DNA of 64,000 nucleotides from Methanospirillum hungatei JF-1 (GCF_000013445.1 NC_007796.1:1648936-1712935); one strand, 5' to 3'. Shown: positions 1 to 33,809, counted from the stretch's first letter. Notes: generated from the letters alone by a model not told the origin. Numbers and translations: made by a program.

Positions 1-682
1 TTATGTGACCGGTCCCAAAAGGAATCTCGTAGACTGATTGGTTGAAGATAAAGGGTCTTCGCTGATCATGAGGGAAATCATAGGGAATGTGAGTTCCAAT
101 AAGAGACGTATACGAATCATCAGAGATATGAGATATGATTCCATCAGAGGAAATCAGGGCTGCAAACATAATTGCAGGATTGTCAGATGTTATTGATGAC
201 AAAAGAGGTGTAATGTCATCACTACGGATACCCGGGTTCGCAAGCTTCAGCAATATGGTTGCCGCCTGCTCATCAATATCTATGAGAGAACCAAGAATAG
301 CTTGCCGAAATGAGAGGCAGTGAGTAACATAATGTTCTGAATCTGACATATCAGCAATAGATACCTGAACCATCAAAGCCGTCATGAAGAAGAGGAGGAC
401 CGGGTAGTTCATACTGGTTGTTTCAGCATCGGGATAAAAATTGTTTCCTGTTCTGATGCTTCTCACCGGTATTTCTGCTAACACTGATGTATCTTCTTTA
501 CCTTCTCCCAGGTCGGAATAATGAGAAACCTCTCGTCCATGCCCCGGACCATCCAGGTAAAATTCTTTTAAGGACTGCAAATGTTGTGGTATCCAGCTGG
601 CGTATAGCCGGGCTGAAGGATCCATCATACCAACAATCGCTTTTGGATCAGCAGACTGTCCTTCAATATCAACCTTTATCAT
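1..682 (-). CDS. partial sensor-like protein, C terminus beyond window
   Basis: An open frame runs leftward off the window edge. From the ATG whose complement is at 680-682 there are about 227 codons without a stop. An internal Met (complement at 410-412) begins a hydrophobic stretch (NYPVLLFFMTALMVQ) that could be a signal peptide or a membrane helix. The following part includes LISSDGIISHISDDSYTSLI, which resembles extracytoplasmic Cache-type sensor domains. The start is uncertain: neither Met has a good ribosome site, and the upstream one lies only 22 bases from the divergent polyphosphate kinase start. If the internal Met is used, the gene is 1-412 and the rest is promoter region. The sensor role is inferred from pattern only. 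Confidence 0.45.
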   Translation of the reverse strand, partial: MIKVDIEGQSADPKAIVGMMDPSARLYASWIPQHLQSLKEFYLDGPGHGREVSHYSDLGEGKEDTSVLAEIPVRSIRTGNNFYPDAETTSMNYPVLLFFMTALMVQVSIADMSDSEHYVTHCLSFRQAILGSLIDIDEQAATILLKLANPGIRSDDITPLLSSITSDNPAIMFAALISSDGIISHISDDSYTSLIGTHIPYDFPHDQRRPFIFNQSVYEIPFGTGHI

Positions 683-26757: not shown

Positions 26758-27177
26758 TTATGTTACTCCTGAATTATAGATTTTTATTGGGATATGGTTC
26801 GCATAATACGAGAAATCTTTGTCTAATGTATATATTTTAAGGTCTGCTTCAGTTGCAACAGCACAAATTAAAAAATCAGTAAGTGAGCCCTGAACTCCTG
26901 CCTTCCTACAGATATTGAAATATTTTGCTGCTTTTTCATAAATCTCTATTTTTAATGGCATATCTGGATAATGCGACAGATGATTTTTTAATTTTTCAAA
27001 CTGTGCTGCTGATGAAATTCCGGATAATAATTCCTGCCTAATTGGTCCAATCATCACAACTCTTCCATCATGTATTAACTCAGTAAGATTGTGAATGATC
27101 TGTAGTTCTTTTTGGGTGTGAGAACCTGCCCTTCTCAAAGCGAGAGACCAGACAGAAGTATCAACAAGAATTTTCAT
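26758..27177 (-). CDS. vapC: VapC-type PIN-domain toxin ribonuclease
   Basis: 139 residues. The PIN domain opens with KILVDTSVWSLAL (Asp6). It continues with IRQELLSG (acidic Glu) and TDFLICAVATEADLKIYTLDKDF, which carry the remaining metal-binding acids. VapC toxins cleave RNA, often tRNA, and are held inactive by VapB. All catalytic acids appear present, so this copy looks functional, unlike the nearby HicBA relic. Its start overlaps the VapB gene end by 17 bases, indicating coupled translation. Confidence 0.94.
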   Translation of the reverse strand: MKILVDTSVWSLALRRAGSHTQKELQIIHNLTELIHDGRVVMIGPIRQELLSGISSAAQFEKLKNHLSHYPDMPLKIEIYEKAAKYFNICRKAGVQGSLTDFLICAVATEADLKIYTLDKDFSYYANHIPIKIYNSGVT

Positions 27178-27373
27178 TTATGTTTCGATATTTTTTATAA
27201 TCGTAGTCTTCATCATAATCGACGGTCCCAAATTGGGAGATTATTTCGATCTGTTTCCTTCTTTGAATATATTCAATAAGTGCTTCGGTAATAACCCCTT
27301 TTTTAGTTTTTACTCCCCCAATTCGCTGTGCTTCCTTGATTAAATCATCATCTAATGCCAGGTTTGATGCCAT
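27161..27373 (-). CDS. vapB: VapB-family antitoxin
   Basis: 70 residues. The N terminus ASNLALDDDLIKEAQRIGGV, with TKKGVITEALIEYIQRRKQ after it, is the DNA-binding ribbon-helix-helix part seen in VapB antitoxins of the DUF2191 group. The acidic tail FGTVDYDEDYDYKKYR is the likely toxin-wrapping part. It is the first gene of the pair and overlaps vapC. Such antitoxins repress their own promoter, which should lie in the gap upstream. Confidence 0.92.
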   Translation of the reverse strand: MASNLALDDDLIKEAQRIGGVKTKKGVITEALIEYIQRRKQIEIISQFGTVDYDEDYDYKKYRNINENSC

Positions 27374-27810
27374 AATTACACAATCTCCTACACATTACGT
27401 TACACATACGTGTGAAGGGCGGAGAGAAAAACCATTCGTTGTGCATTCCAGGTACCAGAAGTAAGGAGTGCGCCATTCACCACCTTTTTCCGGAATCCAA
27501 CCCGTTCAGGCAAGTGCGGGGATGGTATCTGTCCAGATCTCGATGGTGGCAAGCCTCATCAGACTCATACCTGGTGACCAATACATTGCCCCGCATTGGT
27601 GACATTATACAGTTCACTATTCGCTGCATGACACCTGATCGGATTGTGGTAAAAAATCGCAGATCAATTCTTGGAAGACTGTGTGAGGGAACCTAATCCG
27701 GTTATCTGGTAATTGCAGGGATACATCTGCTAATTATTTATACAATAACGATATATAAAAGATAGATTATAGGCAATAGCCAGATTTTTCGGTATGCAGA
27801 GGGATGAGGG
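27374..27810. other. gap: VapBC promoter, relic-like frame and protease promoter
   Basis: No gene is supported in these 437 bases. A plus-strand frame (27412-27696) ends with a coding-like PRIGDIIQFTIRCMTPDRIV but begins without a ribosome site and matches no family I know. A TATA box CGATATATAAAAG at about 27749-27761 fits the protease gene at 27811, leaving a leader of roughly 35 bases. Confidence 0.45.
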
Positions 27811-29595
27811 ATGGAACGAGTGAGTGTATCGTGGATTTTGAGAGCTTGTCTGCTATTCATGCTCATTACCGCAGTATGGGGCGGAGTACAAGCCGAACAA
27901 GGATCTGATTATGTACCTGGTGAGGTCATCGTCAGATATGCAAACCTTGGATCAGGAACAGCGGTTGCATCTGTTGCGTCTTCACTGAACGCCCAGATTG
28001 GGGCTGAGACAATCTACACCGATGAGGTGATGGGAATAAATGGGATGCAGGTGGTAAAGGTCCCGGATACAATATCAGTACCGGATGCTGTTCAGTTTTA
28101 CAAGTCAAATGAACATGTTCTCTATGCTGAACCGAACTATGTAATCACTCTGCCAACACCATTGGGGAAGGGAGAGAATATCATACAGGGACTGGACAGT
28201 GAAACACCAGGGATGACAATTCCGAATGACCCGGATTTTGATCTCCAGTGGGGCCTGTATAATACCCTTAACAGTAGTGCCGGCAGGGCAGATATCAGTG
28301 CTCCTGAGGCGTGGAATATATCCACCGGCTCATCTGATGTCATTGTGGCAGTCGTTGATTCGGGTGTTGACTATAACCATGAAGATCTCGCGGCTAACTG
28401 CCTGAAAGGATTTGACTTTGTAAACTATGATGAAGACCCCATGGACGATAATGGACACGGGACTCATTGTGCAGGGATCATTAGTGCAGTCACGGATAAT
28501 TCAATCGGAATCGCCGGAGTCAGCTGGAATTCAAAGATTTTACCAGTAAAGGTCTTTGATGCCACCGGTGTCAGCAACACGGCCCTTGAGATCATGGGAA
28601 TTGTGTATGCCAAGGAACAGGGTGCAAACATCATCTCCTGTTCATGGGGATCTCATATCTACAGTGAGGCCCTAAAGGACGCGATTGACAGTACAGATGC
28701 ACTCTTTGTCTGTTCTGCAGGGAATGACGGATATGATAACGATGAAATACCCTATTATCCGGCAGGATATAACTCAGCTCATATCATATCTGTGGGTGCA
28801 AGTGATGAGTATGATATGCTCACCTGGTTCTCCAACTATGGTGCTGTTTCTGTTGACCTTCTTGCACCCGGGCAGAATATCTACAGTACCCTTCCGGGAG
28901 ATTATGGGTTCATGGATGGAACCTCAATGTCTGTTCCTTTCGTATCCGGTACAGCAGCACTTATCAAGAGTGAAAAACCCGGCTATGATGCAGGCCAGAT
29001 TAAGAACCTGATTCTCAACTCCGTTGACCAGAAATTCTGGCTGAATTCAACCTGTGCGACCGGGGGCAGACTCAATGCATATAAACCGCTCAGTCTTGTC
29101 CTCCCCTTAAATGCTGATTTTAAGGCAGAACCGGTATCAGGCACTATACCCCTGAACGTCCAGTTTGTTGATATGTCATCAGGTGAGCCAGAAACCTGGC
29201 ACTGGACATTTGGTGACGGGTTTGAATCAACGTTGCAGAATCCCACCCATCTGTACATGAAACCAGGGAAATATTCGATAACCCTCACTATCTCCAAGGA
29301 AGGTCTCAGCTCAATTGCAGAGAAAGAGAATTTCATCCATGTAAAACCACCCTATCAGCCGGTGAAGGCATTCCCTGACGGAAAAGGAGGCTTTTACCCA
29401 GTTCCGACAGATGCGGACGATGACGGACTTTTTGAAGACATAAACGGAAACGGATGGCTTGAATACGAAGATCCAAAACTCCTCTTTGACCAGATCCTCT
29501 TTGCCATGAAAGAAGAACCCATCGGTCAGTTTGATTTTGATAAGAGCGGTTTTATCGGGTTTGGTGATGTTGTGAAATTATACCAGATGGTGTAG
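27811..29595 (+). CDS. secreted subtilisin-family (S8) serine protease with PKD and dockerin-like C terminus
   Basis: 594 residues. A signal peptide (to about 29) is followed by a fervidolysin-type prodomain (about 33-112; VPGEVIVRYANL to YAEPNYVITL). The catalytic domain carries the triad Asp183 (VVDSGVDYNHED), His216 (NGHGTHCAG) and Ser372 (GTSMSVPFVSGTA). A PKD domain follows (about 430-512; LNVQFVDMSSGEPETWHWTF). The last 65 residues contain Ca-binding loops DADDDGLFEDINGNG and FDFDKSGFIGFGD, a dockerin-like pair. The next gene encodes a cohesin-like protein 3 bases on. The protease should act outside the cell, perhaps anchored through that partner. Confidence 0.95.
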   Translation: MERVSVSWILRACLLFMLITAVWGGVQAEQGSDYVPGEVIVRYANLGSGTAVASVASSLNAQIGAETIYTDEVMGINGMQVVKVPDTISVPDAVQFYKSNEHVLYAEPNYVITLPTPLGKGENIIQGLDSETPGMTIPNDPDFDLQWGLYNTLNSSAGRADISAPEAWNISTGSSDVIVAVVDSGVDYNHEDLAANCLKGFDFVNYDEDPMDDNGHGTHCAGIISAVTDNSIGIAGVSWNSKILPVKVFDATGVSNTALEIMGIVYAKEQGANIISCSWGSHIYSEALKDAIDSTDALFVCSAGNDGYDNDEIPYYPAGYNSAHIISVGASDEYDMLTWFSNYGAVSVDLLAPGQNIYSTLPGDYGFMDGTSMSVPFVSGTAALIKSEKPGYDAGQIKNLILNSVDQKFWLNSTCATGGRLNAYKPLSLVLPLNADFKAEPVSGTIPLNVQFVDMSSGEPETWHWTFGDGFESTLQNPTHLYMKPGKYSITLTISKEGLSSIAEKENFIHVKPPYQPVKAFPDGKGGFYPVPTDADDDGLFEDINGNGWLEYEDPKLLFDQILFAMKEEPIGQFDFDKSGFIGFGDVVKLYQMV

Positions 29596-29598
29596 GTG

Positions 29599-30117
29599 AT
29601 GCAGATGAAACAGACATATACTATCGGAGTGCTTGGTGCACTGATCCTCATTGCCGGCCTTATTGCACCGGTGTCAGCATACTCACTCCTCTTCTTTAAC
29701 CCGTCAGTTGTCGAATCCAACCCGGGGGAAGAGCCGGCGATAGATCTCATCATGGAAGGATGTAATGCAGGAATTTCAGGATATGCCCTCTACCTTACCC
29801 TCGATAACCCCACGGTCGCTTCATTTGGTGAGATCAGCTTCCCCTCATGGGTCTCCATGAATAAGGTTGAACATATCAACAGTACGACCATCCTTATTCA
29901 GGGGGCTGACCTTGGAAACCAGGTTGAACCGGCATTGTCCATAGCAAATCTTGCGACCGTGAACATTCATGCTCTGACCGCAGGGTATGCAACATTGAGT
30001 GTCGAGCCGGTTGTCATTGATGATGACAGAAATGGCCGGTATGAACCGGTGAGTAAGACCGCAAGTATCGTTATATCAGGAGCCGGTCCGAATCCGATGA
30101 TTCCCGCATCACAATAG
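29599..30117 (+). CDS. secreted cohesin-like protein
   Basis: 172 residues from ATG at 29599; a second ATG is two codons later. A signal peptide (KQTYTIGVLGALILIAGLIA, cut near PVSAYS) precedes one beta-sandwich domain. Elements such as GISGYALYLTLDNPTVASFG, ISFPSWV and IHALTAGYATLSVEPVVIDD resemble cohesin domains found in archaeal secreted proteins. The partner fold, dockerin, ends the protease gene immediately upstream, and the two stops/starts are 3 bases apart, so they are made together. No membrane anchor is visible at its C terminus. The cohesin call is by pattern and is moderately sure. Confidence 0.75.
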   Translation: MQMKQTYTIGVLGALILIAGLIAPVSAYSLLFFNPSVVESNPGEEPAIDLIMEGCNAGISGYALYLTLDNPTVASFGEISFPSWVSMNKVEHINSTTILIQGADLGNQVEPALSIANLATVNIHALTAGYATLSVEPVVIDDDRNGRYEPVSKTASIVISGAGPNPMIPASQ

Positions 30118-30126
30118 GAGAGATAC

Positions 30127-30426
30127 ATGAAGCAGATATTTGCATATGAAGAACAGGCAGGGCGGATTGAACTATTTATAAGAATAGTGTACTCGTTTGT
30201 CGTCGGGATTGTTCTGATGATTTACGGATTTATCGCAGGTATCTGCATGCTCATCCAGTTTCTGGTAATTCTTATCCTTGGCCGGAGATCACGAAGCCTT
30301 TCAGATTTTATCCAGGGGTATCTGGAGTATTATGTCCATATCCTCCCGTATACCTCTTGTATGACGGATGAACGGCCGGGGATCCTCCCCTCACCAGTGA
30401 GTATCTACGAGGAAGAGAAAGTTTAA
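30127..30426 (+). CDS. DUF4389 membrane protein
   Basis: 99 residues with ribosome site AGGAG ten or so bases before ATG. One long hydrophobic region (about 20-55) holds two membrane helices, followed by GRRSRSLSDFIQGYLEYYVHILPYTSCMTDERPG. The sequence order FVVGIVLMIYG, LGRRSRSLSDFI, YLPYTS-like matches the DUF4389 family of unknown function. As third gene after the secreted protease and the cohesin-like protein it could be a membrane partner for them, but that is only positional. Confidence 0.82.
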   Translation: MKQIFAYEEQAGRIELFIRIVYSFVVGIVLMIYGFIAGICMLIQFLVILILGRRSRSLSDFIQGYLEYYVHILPYTSCMTDERPGILPSPVSIYEEEKV

Positions 30427-31820: not shown

Positions 31821-32531
31821 TCACAGTCTGATCTCGTAGTCAGGCTCTGCATATATAACTGAAGTCTGATTTTTATATGCCTGTACTCCTTCAGACGGGG
31901 TCATGTTCCCGGAAAGTTCAACCAGATGCAGCCCGGACAAGCCTTCGGGGGTGAAATCCCTGAGCAACGTTGCATTCAGTGATGCATGAGTCTGGTTTGC
32001 ATACACAGAAAGGTTTGCACCATCTGGAAATGCTTTGACATTGAACTGGACAAGCAGGCGGGCTGGTCGCTTCGGTGTGCCGTTTTGTGTGAGGGAACCA
32101 GTATCAGGAGTTACATTCTTCCCTTCTATGGCCCCGGTGTTGCTCTCAATGGTATATACAACATTCCGCTCAGCATATTTCACATACGGAAGGCTCTGGT
32201 AATATGCAATGCTCTCTTCCAGAGTCATCCCTGGCGGTAGCTGAACCAGCTGGAGTCCGGGAAGTCCGAGCTCATTATAGTCCGTCTTCACTGTTGCCCC
32301 GATATATGCATGAGAAGCATTGGCAGCCGCCTGCAGGGCTGTTGTATTCCAGAGTTCAGGGTTAAACCGGACTAAGAGTTCACCCTGCATTGATTCATTC
32401 TGTACATCCCCGACAGGTGTTGTCACCGTTTCCCCTTCCTTTTTTACAACACTGAGGGTATCTCCAATAACAAATACCCCGCAGATGAGAAGTAACCCCA
32501 TTACCAGCATAAGACCCATAGACCTTTGCAT
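31821..32531 (-). CDS. free-standing tandem subtilase prodomain protein (possible protease inhibitor)
   Basis: 236 residues from Met at complement 32529-32531, which starts a signal or anchor helix (MGLMLVMGLLLICGVFVIG). Two copies of a fervidolysin-type propeptide follow: GELLVRFNPELWN to YVKYAERNVVYTI, and ARLLVQFNVKAFPDG to SVIYAEPDYEIRL. Both match the prodomain of the protease at 27811-29595 (GEVIVRYANL to YAEPNYVITL). No catalytic domain is attached. Free-standing prodomains of subtilases are known to inhibit or fold the enzyme in trans, and this is the likely role. An upstream Met at 32660 would overlap the divergent aminotransferase and place the helix internally. Confidence 0.82.
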   Translation of the reverse strand: MQRSMGLMLVMGLLLICGVFVIGDTLSVVKKEGETVTTPVGDVQNESMQGELLVRFNPELWNTTALQAAANASHAYIGATVKTDYNELGLPGLQLVQLPPGMTLEESIAYYQSLPYVKYAERNVVYTIESNTGAIEGKNVTPDTGSLTQNGTPKRPARLLVQFNVKAFPDGANLSVYANQTHASLNATLLRDFTPEGLSGLHLVELSGNMTPSEGVQAYKNQTSVIYAEPDYEIRL

Positions 32532-32609
32532 AAAGAGGATATTAGGAGCCTGGAGATAATAGGCTTGCTGTATCAAAAGAATTTCTTCTGAAAAAGTCAA
32601 CAGATCAGT

Positions 32610-33809
32610 ATGACTGGTACGAATGCCGGCCCTGTATACCGGTTTTCTTCCTGCATGCATATCCTTCCGCCCTCATTTCTGGATGAACTCTTCAGGGTAT
32701 CAGCCGTGCCCGGGATCATCTCTTTTGCAGGCGGACTTCCTGATGCATCACTCTTTGATCTACAGGGAATCAGGCAGGCAACAGAAGCAGTCTTTGATGA
32801 GCATGGGAGAGCAGCCCTTCAGTATACCACCACCGACGGGTATCGTCCCTTACGGGAGATAATTGCCCGCCGGTATTATACGCGGCTGGGACTTTTGGTC
32901 AGCGCTGACGAGATACAAATAGTAAATGGGTCACAGCAGGCTCTTGACCTTATGGCAAAAATACTGACCAGCCCTGGAGACTCGATCCTAATCGAACGCC
33001 CCGGATATCTGGGTGCCATCGAAGCCTTTTCATTTTATAGCCCTGTTTTTTCTCCGGTTCCGCCCGATGATGAGGGACCTGACCCTGACTATCTTGCCAA
33101 TATCATCAGGACAGAAGACCCGGTTTTCTTTTACGGGATTCCGAATTCACAAAACCCGTCAGGATGTACCTGGTCAGATATGCGACGAAGGGAGGTGGCT
33201 GACATCCTCTCCGGAACTGACTGTCTGCTCTATGAAGATGATGCCTTTGGAGAACTCTTCTTTGACGGAAAGCCACGCCAGCCGGTGATGAAACACCTGC
33301 CAGACCAGGTCATGATGAGCGGATCATTCTCAAAAGTAGTCGCCCCGGGACTTCGCATCGGATGGATTCGGGCACCCAGACCTGTTCTGGCCGCATTTAA
33401 CCGGGCAAAGCAGGCAGCAGATCTCCACTCAAATCTCTTCTCCCAGATGGTCCTGACCGAGTATATGACCAGAAATAATCCTGATGAGAAGATACGTGCG
33501 ATGGGACGGGAGTATGGAGAGCGATGCCGGCTCATGACCGACCTTATTGAGGATATGCTGCCCGATACCGTCGGTCACACGAATCCTGTCGGTGGGATGT
33601 TCCTGATGCTGACCCTCCCGGATTCCATGCATTCGATGGAGATATTTGAGAAGGGTATTCAGGAAGGGGTTGCAGTAATGCCCGGTGTTCCCTTTTATGT
33701 TGATGACGGCGGATGCAGAACCATCAGACTGAACTTCTCTGCCTCCTCGAAAGAGCAGATAGAGGCAGGTATGAGCCGCCTTGCCCGGGTGTTTCGGGAT
33801 ATGGCATGA
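32610..33809 (+). CDS. PLP-dependent aminotransferase (2-aminoadipate/MocR-type class I)
   Basis: 399 residues. The N terminus FAGGLPDASLFD and the central NSQNPSGCTWSDMRR, LYEDDAFGELFF and SGSFSKVVAPGLRIGW are typical of the LysN/2-aminoadipate aminotransferase group. Lys242 forms the Schiff base. IRLNFSA near the end holds the carboxylate-binding Arg. All expected catalytic residues are present, unlike in the homologue at 30453. It is divergent from the prodomain gene, with about 80 bases between starts. The donor amino acid is not determined. Confidence 0.95.
   Translation: MTGTNAGPVYRFSSCMHILPPSFLDELFRVSAVPGIISFAGGLPDASLFDLQGIRQATEAVFDEHGRAALQYTTTDGYRPLREIIARRYYTRLGLLVSADEIQIVNGSQQALDLMAKILTSPGDSILIERPGYLGAIEAFSFYSPVFSPVPPDDEGPDPDYLANIIRTEDPVFFYGIPNSQNPSGCTWSDMRRREVADILSGTDCLLYEDDAFGELFFDGKPRQPVMKHLPDQVMMSGSFSKVVAPGLRIGWIRAPRPVLAAFNRAKQAADLHSNLFSQMVLTEYMTRNNPDEKIRAMGREYGERCRLMTDLIEDMLPDTVGHTNPVGGMFLMLTLPDSMHSMEIFEKGIQEGVAVMPGVPFYVDDGGCRTIRLNFSASSKEQIEAGMSRLARVFRDMA

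Follow-up and report, generated by a model that had tools for sequence, protein, structure and literature searches.

The genes described here lie in a stretch of 64,000 nucleotides of Methanospirillum hungatei JF-1 DNA (C1:1648936-1712935; the window, from whose first letter all positions are counted), and their features are collected in Table 1. The first gene encodes a secreted subtilase precursor (P0001), the second a secreted protein with a single cohesin module (P0002), and the third, which begins 9 bases past the cohesin gene, a small membrane protein with a DUF4389 domain. A preliminary description of this DNA had reported a subtilase, a cohesin-like gene and a DUF4389 gene, and the gene coordinates and all three elements were found where it had placed them. 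Directly upstream of the probable operon and divergent from it lies a pair of genes for a VapB antitoxin and a PIN-domain (VapC-type) protein (window 26758-27373, minus strand).

Table 1. Features of the subtilase-cohesin locus of M. hungatei JF-1 (window positions; residues refer to P0001).
Feature	Window position	Residues	Strand	Evidence
TATA-like sequence TTTATACAATAACGATATATAAAAG in an AT-rich stretch upstream of the protease; possible operon promoter	27735..27765		+	Direct reading only
P0001, secreted S8 subtilase precursor, 594 aa	27811..29595		+	ORF, Pfam
P0001 signal peptide (Sec)		1-29
P0001 fervidolysin-type prodomain		26-109		Pfam Fervidolysin_NPro 2e-14
P0001 S8 catalytic domain		175-406		Pfam S8 2e-54
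P0001 PKD domain		431-512		Pfam PKD_4 8e-14
P0001 dockerin-type tail, 82 aa	29347..29592	513-594	+
Ribosome-binding site GGTGAT; overlaps the stop codon of the protease gene	29595..29600		+	Direct reading
P0002, secreted single-cohesin protein, 170-172 aa	29605..30117		+	AlphaFold2, Foldseek, VIA, family profile
P0002 alternative starts	ATG 29599, GTG 29596		+
Small membrane protein with DUF4389 domain; gene 3 of the probable operon	30127..30426		+	Pfam DUF4389 E=7e-18

P0001 carries the Asp-His-Ser triad motifs of the S8 family (DSGVDYNHED, GHGTHC and GTSMS). Its tail contains two F-hand calcium loops, DINGNGWLEYED and DFDKSGFIGFGD, spaced by 32 residues, with a third acidic loop (DADDDGLFED) upstream of both. 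Taking as a dockerin a module of 60-80 aa at a protein terminus with F-hand loops about 20-35 residues apart, we assign the tail to this type on its two F-hand loops and its terminal position in a secreted protein. The Pfam model Dockerin_1 (PF00404) gave no match to the P0001 tail, which was recognised by EF-hand models only (best EF-hand_7, E=0.003); the same model matches 11 of 14 homologous tails, and an orthologous tail (L046) at E=0.007. A profile built from the 14 tails matched dockerins in the PDB (4fl4 at 1.8e-4, 2y3n, 2ccl and 1ohz) as well as 8x39/8x3a, entitled 'Serine protease', at 0.0019, with plain EF-hand proteins outranking the dockerins among these matches, and it recovered the P0001 dockerin across the JF-1 genome with E=1.2e-31. 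Together, the F-hand loops and this profile bear out the preliminary description in giving the secreted subtilase a tail of dockerin type.

The most likely start of P0002 is the ATG at 29605, because GGTGAT overlaps the protease stop and the orthologues begin at the equivalent methionine; GGTGA ahead of an ATGAAA start is kept in three relatives (L058, L059 and L061). The overlap of this site with the stop codon implies that translation of the cohesin is probably coupled to that of the protease, which would fit a 1:1 ratio of the products. Read-through of the in-frame TAG into a protease-dockerin-cohesin fusion might be considered, with the cohesin in the same frame after the TAG in JF-1 and three close relatives, but comparison refutes it: in M. 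stamsii and OWC_0038 the cohesin is out of frame, the stops vary (TAG, TGA and TAA), and the signal peptide of the cohesin would become internal.

P0002 consists of a signal peptide to about residue 28, a cohesin at about residues 28-162 and a conserved tail, ISGAGPNPMIPASQ, of the GAGPxPxIP type (GAGPNPMIPASQ). Taken alone it has no match in Pfam (E<=1) and none in NCBIfam, and as a single sequence it finds nothing in the PDB with phmmer at E<=10. A family profile of 21 relatives, by comparison, hits cohesins only in the PDB (6 of 6 matches at E<1), and Pfam Cohesin (PF00963) matches 3 of these 21 members; a P0002 paralogue in JF-1 scores above the cut-off of that model (24.6 vs 24.1 bits). 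AlphaFold2 with seven aligned orthologues predicts a beta-sandwich (pLDDT 80.6, pTM 0.72). With this model the best 50 chains in Foldseek are cohesins or cohesin-like modules (E 2e-9), and in VIA cohesins make up 49 of the best 50 PDB entries, with Z from 16.5 (2vo8) to 11 and 14.4 for the Archaeoglobus cohesin 2xdh. As modelled, the fold of P0002 is the cohesin-type nine-strand jelly-roll beta-sandwich. The Pfam cohesin model marks a limit of sensitivity and not the definition of the family, to which P0002 belongs by fold and by profile. The preliminary description had staked its reading on a cohesin fold at 29599-30117, and that fold is what Foldseek and VIA return; in profile searches, which it had also proposed, the family profiles find cohesins and dockerins, and Pfam Cohesin and Dockerin_1 miss these copies.

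Across the JF-1 genome we count 5 cohesin modules and 7 dockerin modules, six of the dockerins found by profile and one N-terminal on a BtuF-like protein. The dockerin proteins comprise proteases, propellers, a NosD and the BtuF-like binding protein; the gene of the latter, a putative metal-complex binding protein, stands beside its ABC transporter genes (C1:206423-209566, L033/L040). All three cohesin loci sit directly behind a dockerin gene, which by chance would be expected with a probability of about 1e-8 for 7 dockerin genes among 3239. The first locus is the subtilase-dockerin gene followed by P0002; at the second, a propeller-dockerin gene overlaps by 4 bases the gene of a 325-aa cohesin protein; at the third, a 1531-aa SBBP-PKD-cohesin-dockerin gene is followed by two cohesin-PKD-PEGA genes. 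Hence the pair is not the isolated one that had been described, JF-1 having three dockerin-to-cohesin loci. Each of the four cohesin genes encodes one cohesin module only, so that JF-1 has neighbouring dockerin and cohesin genes of the non-cellulosomal archaeal kind and neither a multi-cohesin scaffoldin nor a cellulosome. With a single cohesin on each protein, a receptor or adaptor acting 1:1 is to be expected: P0002 could hold one dockerin, and neither the small scaffold nor the proteolytic complex that had been proposed, if taken as an assembly of several enzymes, is supported.

The surplus of dockerins raises the question of partner choice. In an exchangeable network, neighbourhood would not strictly fix the partners: each of the seven dockerin proteins might dock to P0002, and the PKD-PEGA cohesins elsewhere in the genome might serve the subtilase. 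The unequal module numbers would allow for this, as would four dockerin genes that have no cohesin neighbour, among them that of another dockerin-bearing subtilase (43% identity across 458 aa). However, loop 2 of the P0001 dockerin (dockerin A) is distinct, DFDKSGFIGFGD with Gly at position 9 against DFNGNGRIDFAD in most others, and dockerin A co-diverges with its own cohesin, so that we regard such a network as possible but less probable than a dedicated pair.

The gene order seen in JF-1 recurs among its relatives. In the GTDB family, a dockerin gene on the same strand immediately precedes 39 of the 79 cohesin-only genes and immediately follows none of them (0 of 79), counts that describe the neighbours of cohesins and not dockerins lacking cohesins, the stretches having been picked around cohesin matches. 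The gaps from dockerin to cohesin gene are mostly -4 to +21. In Methanospirillum, 18 of 24 cohesins lie directly behind a dockerin gene and the other 6 belong to dockerin-cohesin-cohesin arrays; for 33 cohesin-only genes, mostly of other genera, no neighbouring dockerin was detected. Of the 59 near-complete genomes, 33 contain both modules, 23 neither and 3 are discordant (Fisher 5e-13, uncorrected for phylogeny). The association persists within the single genus g12 (p=6e-4), which lowers the phylogeny problem. At the level of the phylum, a large dockerin-bearing gene followed by a short single cohesin (about 171-198 aa) recurs, and with the Methanospirillum cohesin alignment as locus query 6 named loci were obtained; the viral contigs searched held no relative. 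Four genomes of the family (G073, G089, G090 and G092) have 20-45 dockerin modules and 0-5 cohesins of the P0002 type, an excess which suggests that their dockerins may have other partners, perhaps another type of cohesin.

Two further arrangements were observed in this survey. Seven loci (L124, L125, L126, L127, L133, L139 and L146) share a cassette of a large cohesin protein, usually with a dockerin motif, a short single cohesin, and a 189-224-aa protein that itself carries dockerin loops, along with a C-terminal domain that is conserved. At L122:1646-2653 (G098), a gene lying upstream of one for a cohesin encodes a chagasin-family (I42) cysteine-protease inhibitor fused to a dockerin, which in an archaeon corresponds to the cellulosomal dockerin-bearing protease inhibitors.

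The orthologous pair is present in ten Methanospirillum genomes. The first gene encodes a subtilase in six of them and a papain-family (C1) protein in the others, namely M. stamsii (L060), L046, L047 and L048/L062. P0001 and the M. stamsii protein align from residue 431 to the end, that is over PKD and dockerin, with 66% identity, and show no similarity in the catalytic part. Taken separately, the dockerins of the two species are 83%, the cohesins 78% and the PKD domains 51% identical, and the neighbouring cohesin, DUF4389 and aminotransferase genes 78-79%. In OWC_0038 the dockerin (55% identity) and the cohesin (41%) have diverged far, but the downstream DUF4389 protein (77%) has not, which indicates that dockerin and cohesin change together. 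An exchanged catalytic domain beside a dockerin and a cohesin that are retained, better than the PKD domain, and co-diverge is the best evidence that the two form one functional unit.

The exchange may not always have left an active peptidase. The papain domain reads CGNCW in M. stamsii and CGNGW in the other three (L046, L047 and L062), and that of L046 lacks the catalytic histidine as well; having lost the catalytic cysteine, these three papain-family proteins are probably dead enzymes or pseudopeptidases. The 'proteolytic' character named in the preliminary description is therefore not strictly kept, since of the four papain-family domains that relatives bear in place of the subtilase three lack the catalytic cysteine. 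In the trees of the tails and of the cohesins, M. stamsii falls with or beside the subtilase versions, and a single exchange event would suffice to explain these data. The only JF-1 orthologue of the papain domain from M. stamsii lies within a C1+S8 protein of 1087 aa, and M. stamsii for its part lacks a close S8 orthologue (best 46-50%). The 1087-aa ORF lies outside the window (C1:3411038-3413197, minus strand), matches both the papain C1 and the S8 queries, and has similar ORFs in G075, G077 and G084; this two-protease protein is a possible source of the exchanged domains.

It could be argued that the pair is a relic, i.e., vestigial cohesin and EF-hand modules inherited vertically without interacting. 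The early paper on an archaeal pair that is cited in part of PMC9012536 speaks in its title of an 'enigmatic vestige', and neither module of P0001/P0002 is recognised by its Pfam model. We hold this to be very improbable, as the pair is kept in all 10 Methanospirillum copies, and dockerin and cohesin not only exceed the PKD domain in identity, as given above, but both survive the exchange of the catalytic domain. The pair is real and beyond chance, and much as first described, but it would be a 1:1 attachment unit, one of several in the genome, and not a scaffolded proteolytic complex.

We propose that the two genes constitute a minimal, scaffold-free cohesin-dockerin attachment unit holding a protease in the space of the cell envelope, which we consider the probable reading. 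The subtilase would be exported via Sec as a zymogen and matured through loss of its fervidolysin-type prodomain; the PKD-dockerin tail would bind calcium and be captured by the co-translated and co-secreted single cohesin; and the resulting 1:1 complex would keep the protease in the envelope space, under the sheath or at the S-layer, and prevent it from diffusing away. The cohesin fold, the dockerin-type tail and the adjacency of the genes make it likely that the two are cognate partners like those of Archaeoglobus, as had been suggested earlier. We infer that the P0001 dockerin binds the P0002 cohesin in a calcium-dependent manner, giving surface retention, and the cell-surface position named in the preliminary description is plausible. 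A one-chain AlphaFold2 model of dockerin and cohesin (through the TAG, 10-row alignment) yielded no usable interface, with a dockerin pLDDT of about 40 and a pTM of 0.50, and thus speaks neither for nor against binding.

A C-terminal transmembrane helix is absent from P0002 and from all 24 Methanospirillum cohesins, which means that the anchor of the attachment unit would be something other than the cohesin. This has a bearing on another explanation, in which the cohesin is no attachment device but helps the calcium-binding tail to fold, stabilises or caps it, or regulates the protease: a single soluble domain, anchorless in every Methanospirillum copy and strictly coupled 1:1 in gene order, would suit such a role. 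Yet the same order occurs with non-proteases (beta-propellers, NHL and NosD-like proteins), and in other genera the cohesin frequently has a linker and a transmembrane helix at its C terminus (L050, L052-L054, L087, L088 and L096). Both observations fit attachment better, and a folding or regulatory role is accordingly unlikely. The linker and helix, or a PGF-type tail, on the cohesins of relatives point to the cohesin being an anchored receptor there.

Candidates for the anchor in Methanospirillum are the GAGPxPxIP tail, the DUF4389 protein at this locus and, in relatives, a protein with a transmembrane tail ('EFYG'); in the latter two cases the third gene would contribute the membrane attachment. 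DUF4389 follows the cohesin in 8 of the 10 Methanospirillum loci, and the secreted EFYG protein with a C-terminal helix is the product of the third gene at two pair-A loci and at every pair-B locus. The PPxPxEFYG family, with its C-terminal membrane helix, was noted as the third gene behind dockerin-cohesin pairs at L038:7929-8471, L046:4980-6395, L047:6955-8337, L063, L065, L067, L069, L071 and L098, and two members examined against Pfam gave no match. Carrying the proposal further, the locus may be a modular 'socket', a dockerin-cohesin operon chassis in which peptidases are exchanged (S8 subtilase, C1A papain, dead papain), the cohesin acts as a dedicated receptor for the effector and the third, membrane-bound product serves as the anchor; we put this forward tentatively, with clearly less confidence than the attachment unit itself. 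From the alignments, plug and socket (dockerin and cohesin) look like the part that matters, and the enzyme exchangeable.

Further downstream (window 31821-32660, minus strand) lies a gene that encodes two fervidolysin-type prodomains in tandem but lacks a protease domain, and that occupies the same position in five relatives. Its product looks like a free-standing subtilisin propeptide or inhibitor. A role as specific inhibitor of P0001 is weakened because the gene is kept in M. stamsii, where the local protease is of the papain type; M. stamsii has other subtilases, which leaves room for an inhibitor function.

A better knowledge of such pairs is of interest, as passages of PMC9012536 and PMC5244752 call the role of cohesins and dockerins in non-cellulolytic archaea unclear. 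The JF-1 locus is a very small and genetically simple case, comprising a single enzyme, a single cohesin and a single membrane protein; JF-1 is moreover a type strain in culture, and its sister species M. stamsii offers a natural domain swap. Whether neighbouring archaeal pairs attach exoenzymes to the envelope is directly testable here with two purified domains. The rule that the dockerin gene lies upstream of the cohesin gene, and in our sample never downstream, may be used to assign partners in archaeal genomes.

Neither dockerin nor cohesin is mentioned in the JF-1 genome paper, and the excerpts of literature jointly naming M. hungatei and subtilisin hold nothing on the P0001-P0002 locus. 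In mostly open-access literature, the main 2009 survey not among it, we found no description of a dedicated protease-cohesin operon or of a peptidase-family exchange on a kept dockerin-cohesin chassis. Portions of PMC9012536 report that archaeal cohesin-dockerin pairs without scaffoldins bind specifically, and portions of PMC5244752 give counts of these domains for archaea of the methane cycle. These surveys of ANME and methanogens share with our work the cohesins and dockerins and their occurrence at the level of the phylum; they differ, in the same portions, by dealing with domain counts and with scaffoldin-like and transporter proteins, and not with a protease-cohesin pair or a catalytic exchange (PMC9012536; PMC5244752).

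Among bacteria, the S8 protease dDoc_0689 of Clostridium thermocellum (8x39, 8x3a), for which surface anchoring via the ScaD cohesin has been proposed (PMC12484212), resembles P0001 in combining an S8 protease with a dockerin and is matched by our 14-tail profile. Unlike P0001, it has a double dockerin and belongs to a cellulosome with multi-cohesin scaffoldins, and its cohesin is not an operon partner. In Ruminococcus flavefaciens, a papain-like (NlpC/P60) X-dockerin protein is bound by the ScaE cohesin (PMC3573020). Here a module like a cysteine peptidase on a dockerin and a cohesin receptor at the surface parallel the papain-family Methanospirillum versions, although the system is bacterial, the module is NlpC/P60 and not C1A, and ScaE is covalently attached by sortase. 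The last comparison is with the genome of locus L123, which we take to be that of Archaeoglobus fulgidus. Its large protein is not a protease but a Coh-Doc protein with propeller-like repeats, and the short cohesin carries at its end a PGF-type membrane or sorting tail, which P0002 lacks. As in JF-1, however, the gene of a large dockerin-ending protein adjoins a 190-aa single-cohesin gene in the absence of a scaffoldin, and the A. fulgidus cohesin (2xdh) has the same fold as P0002 (Z 14.4).
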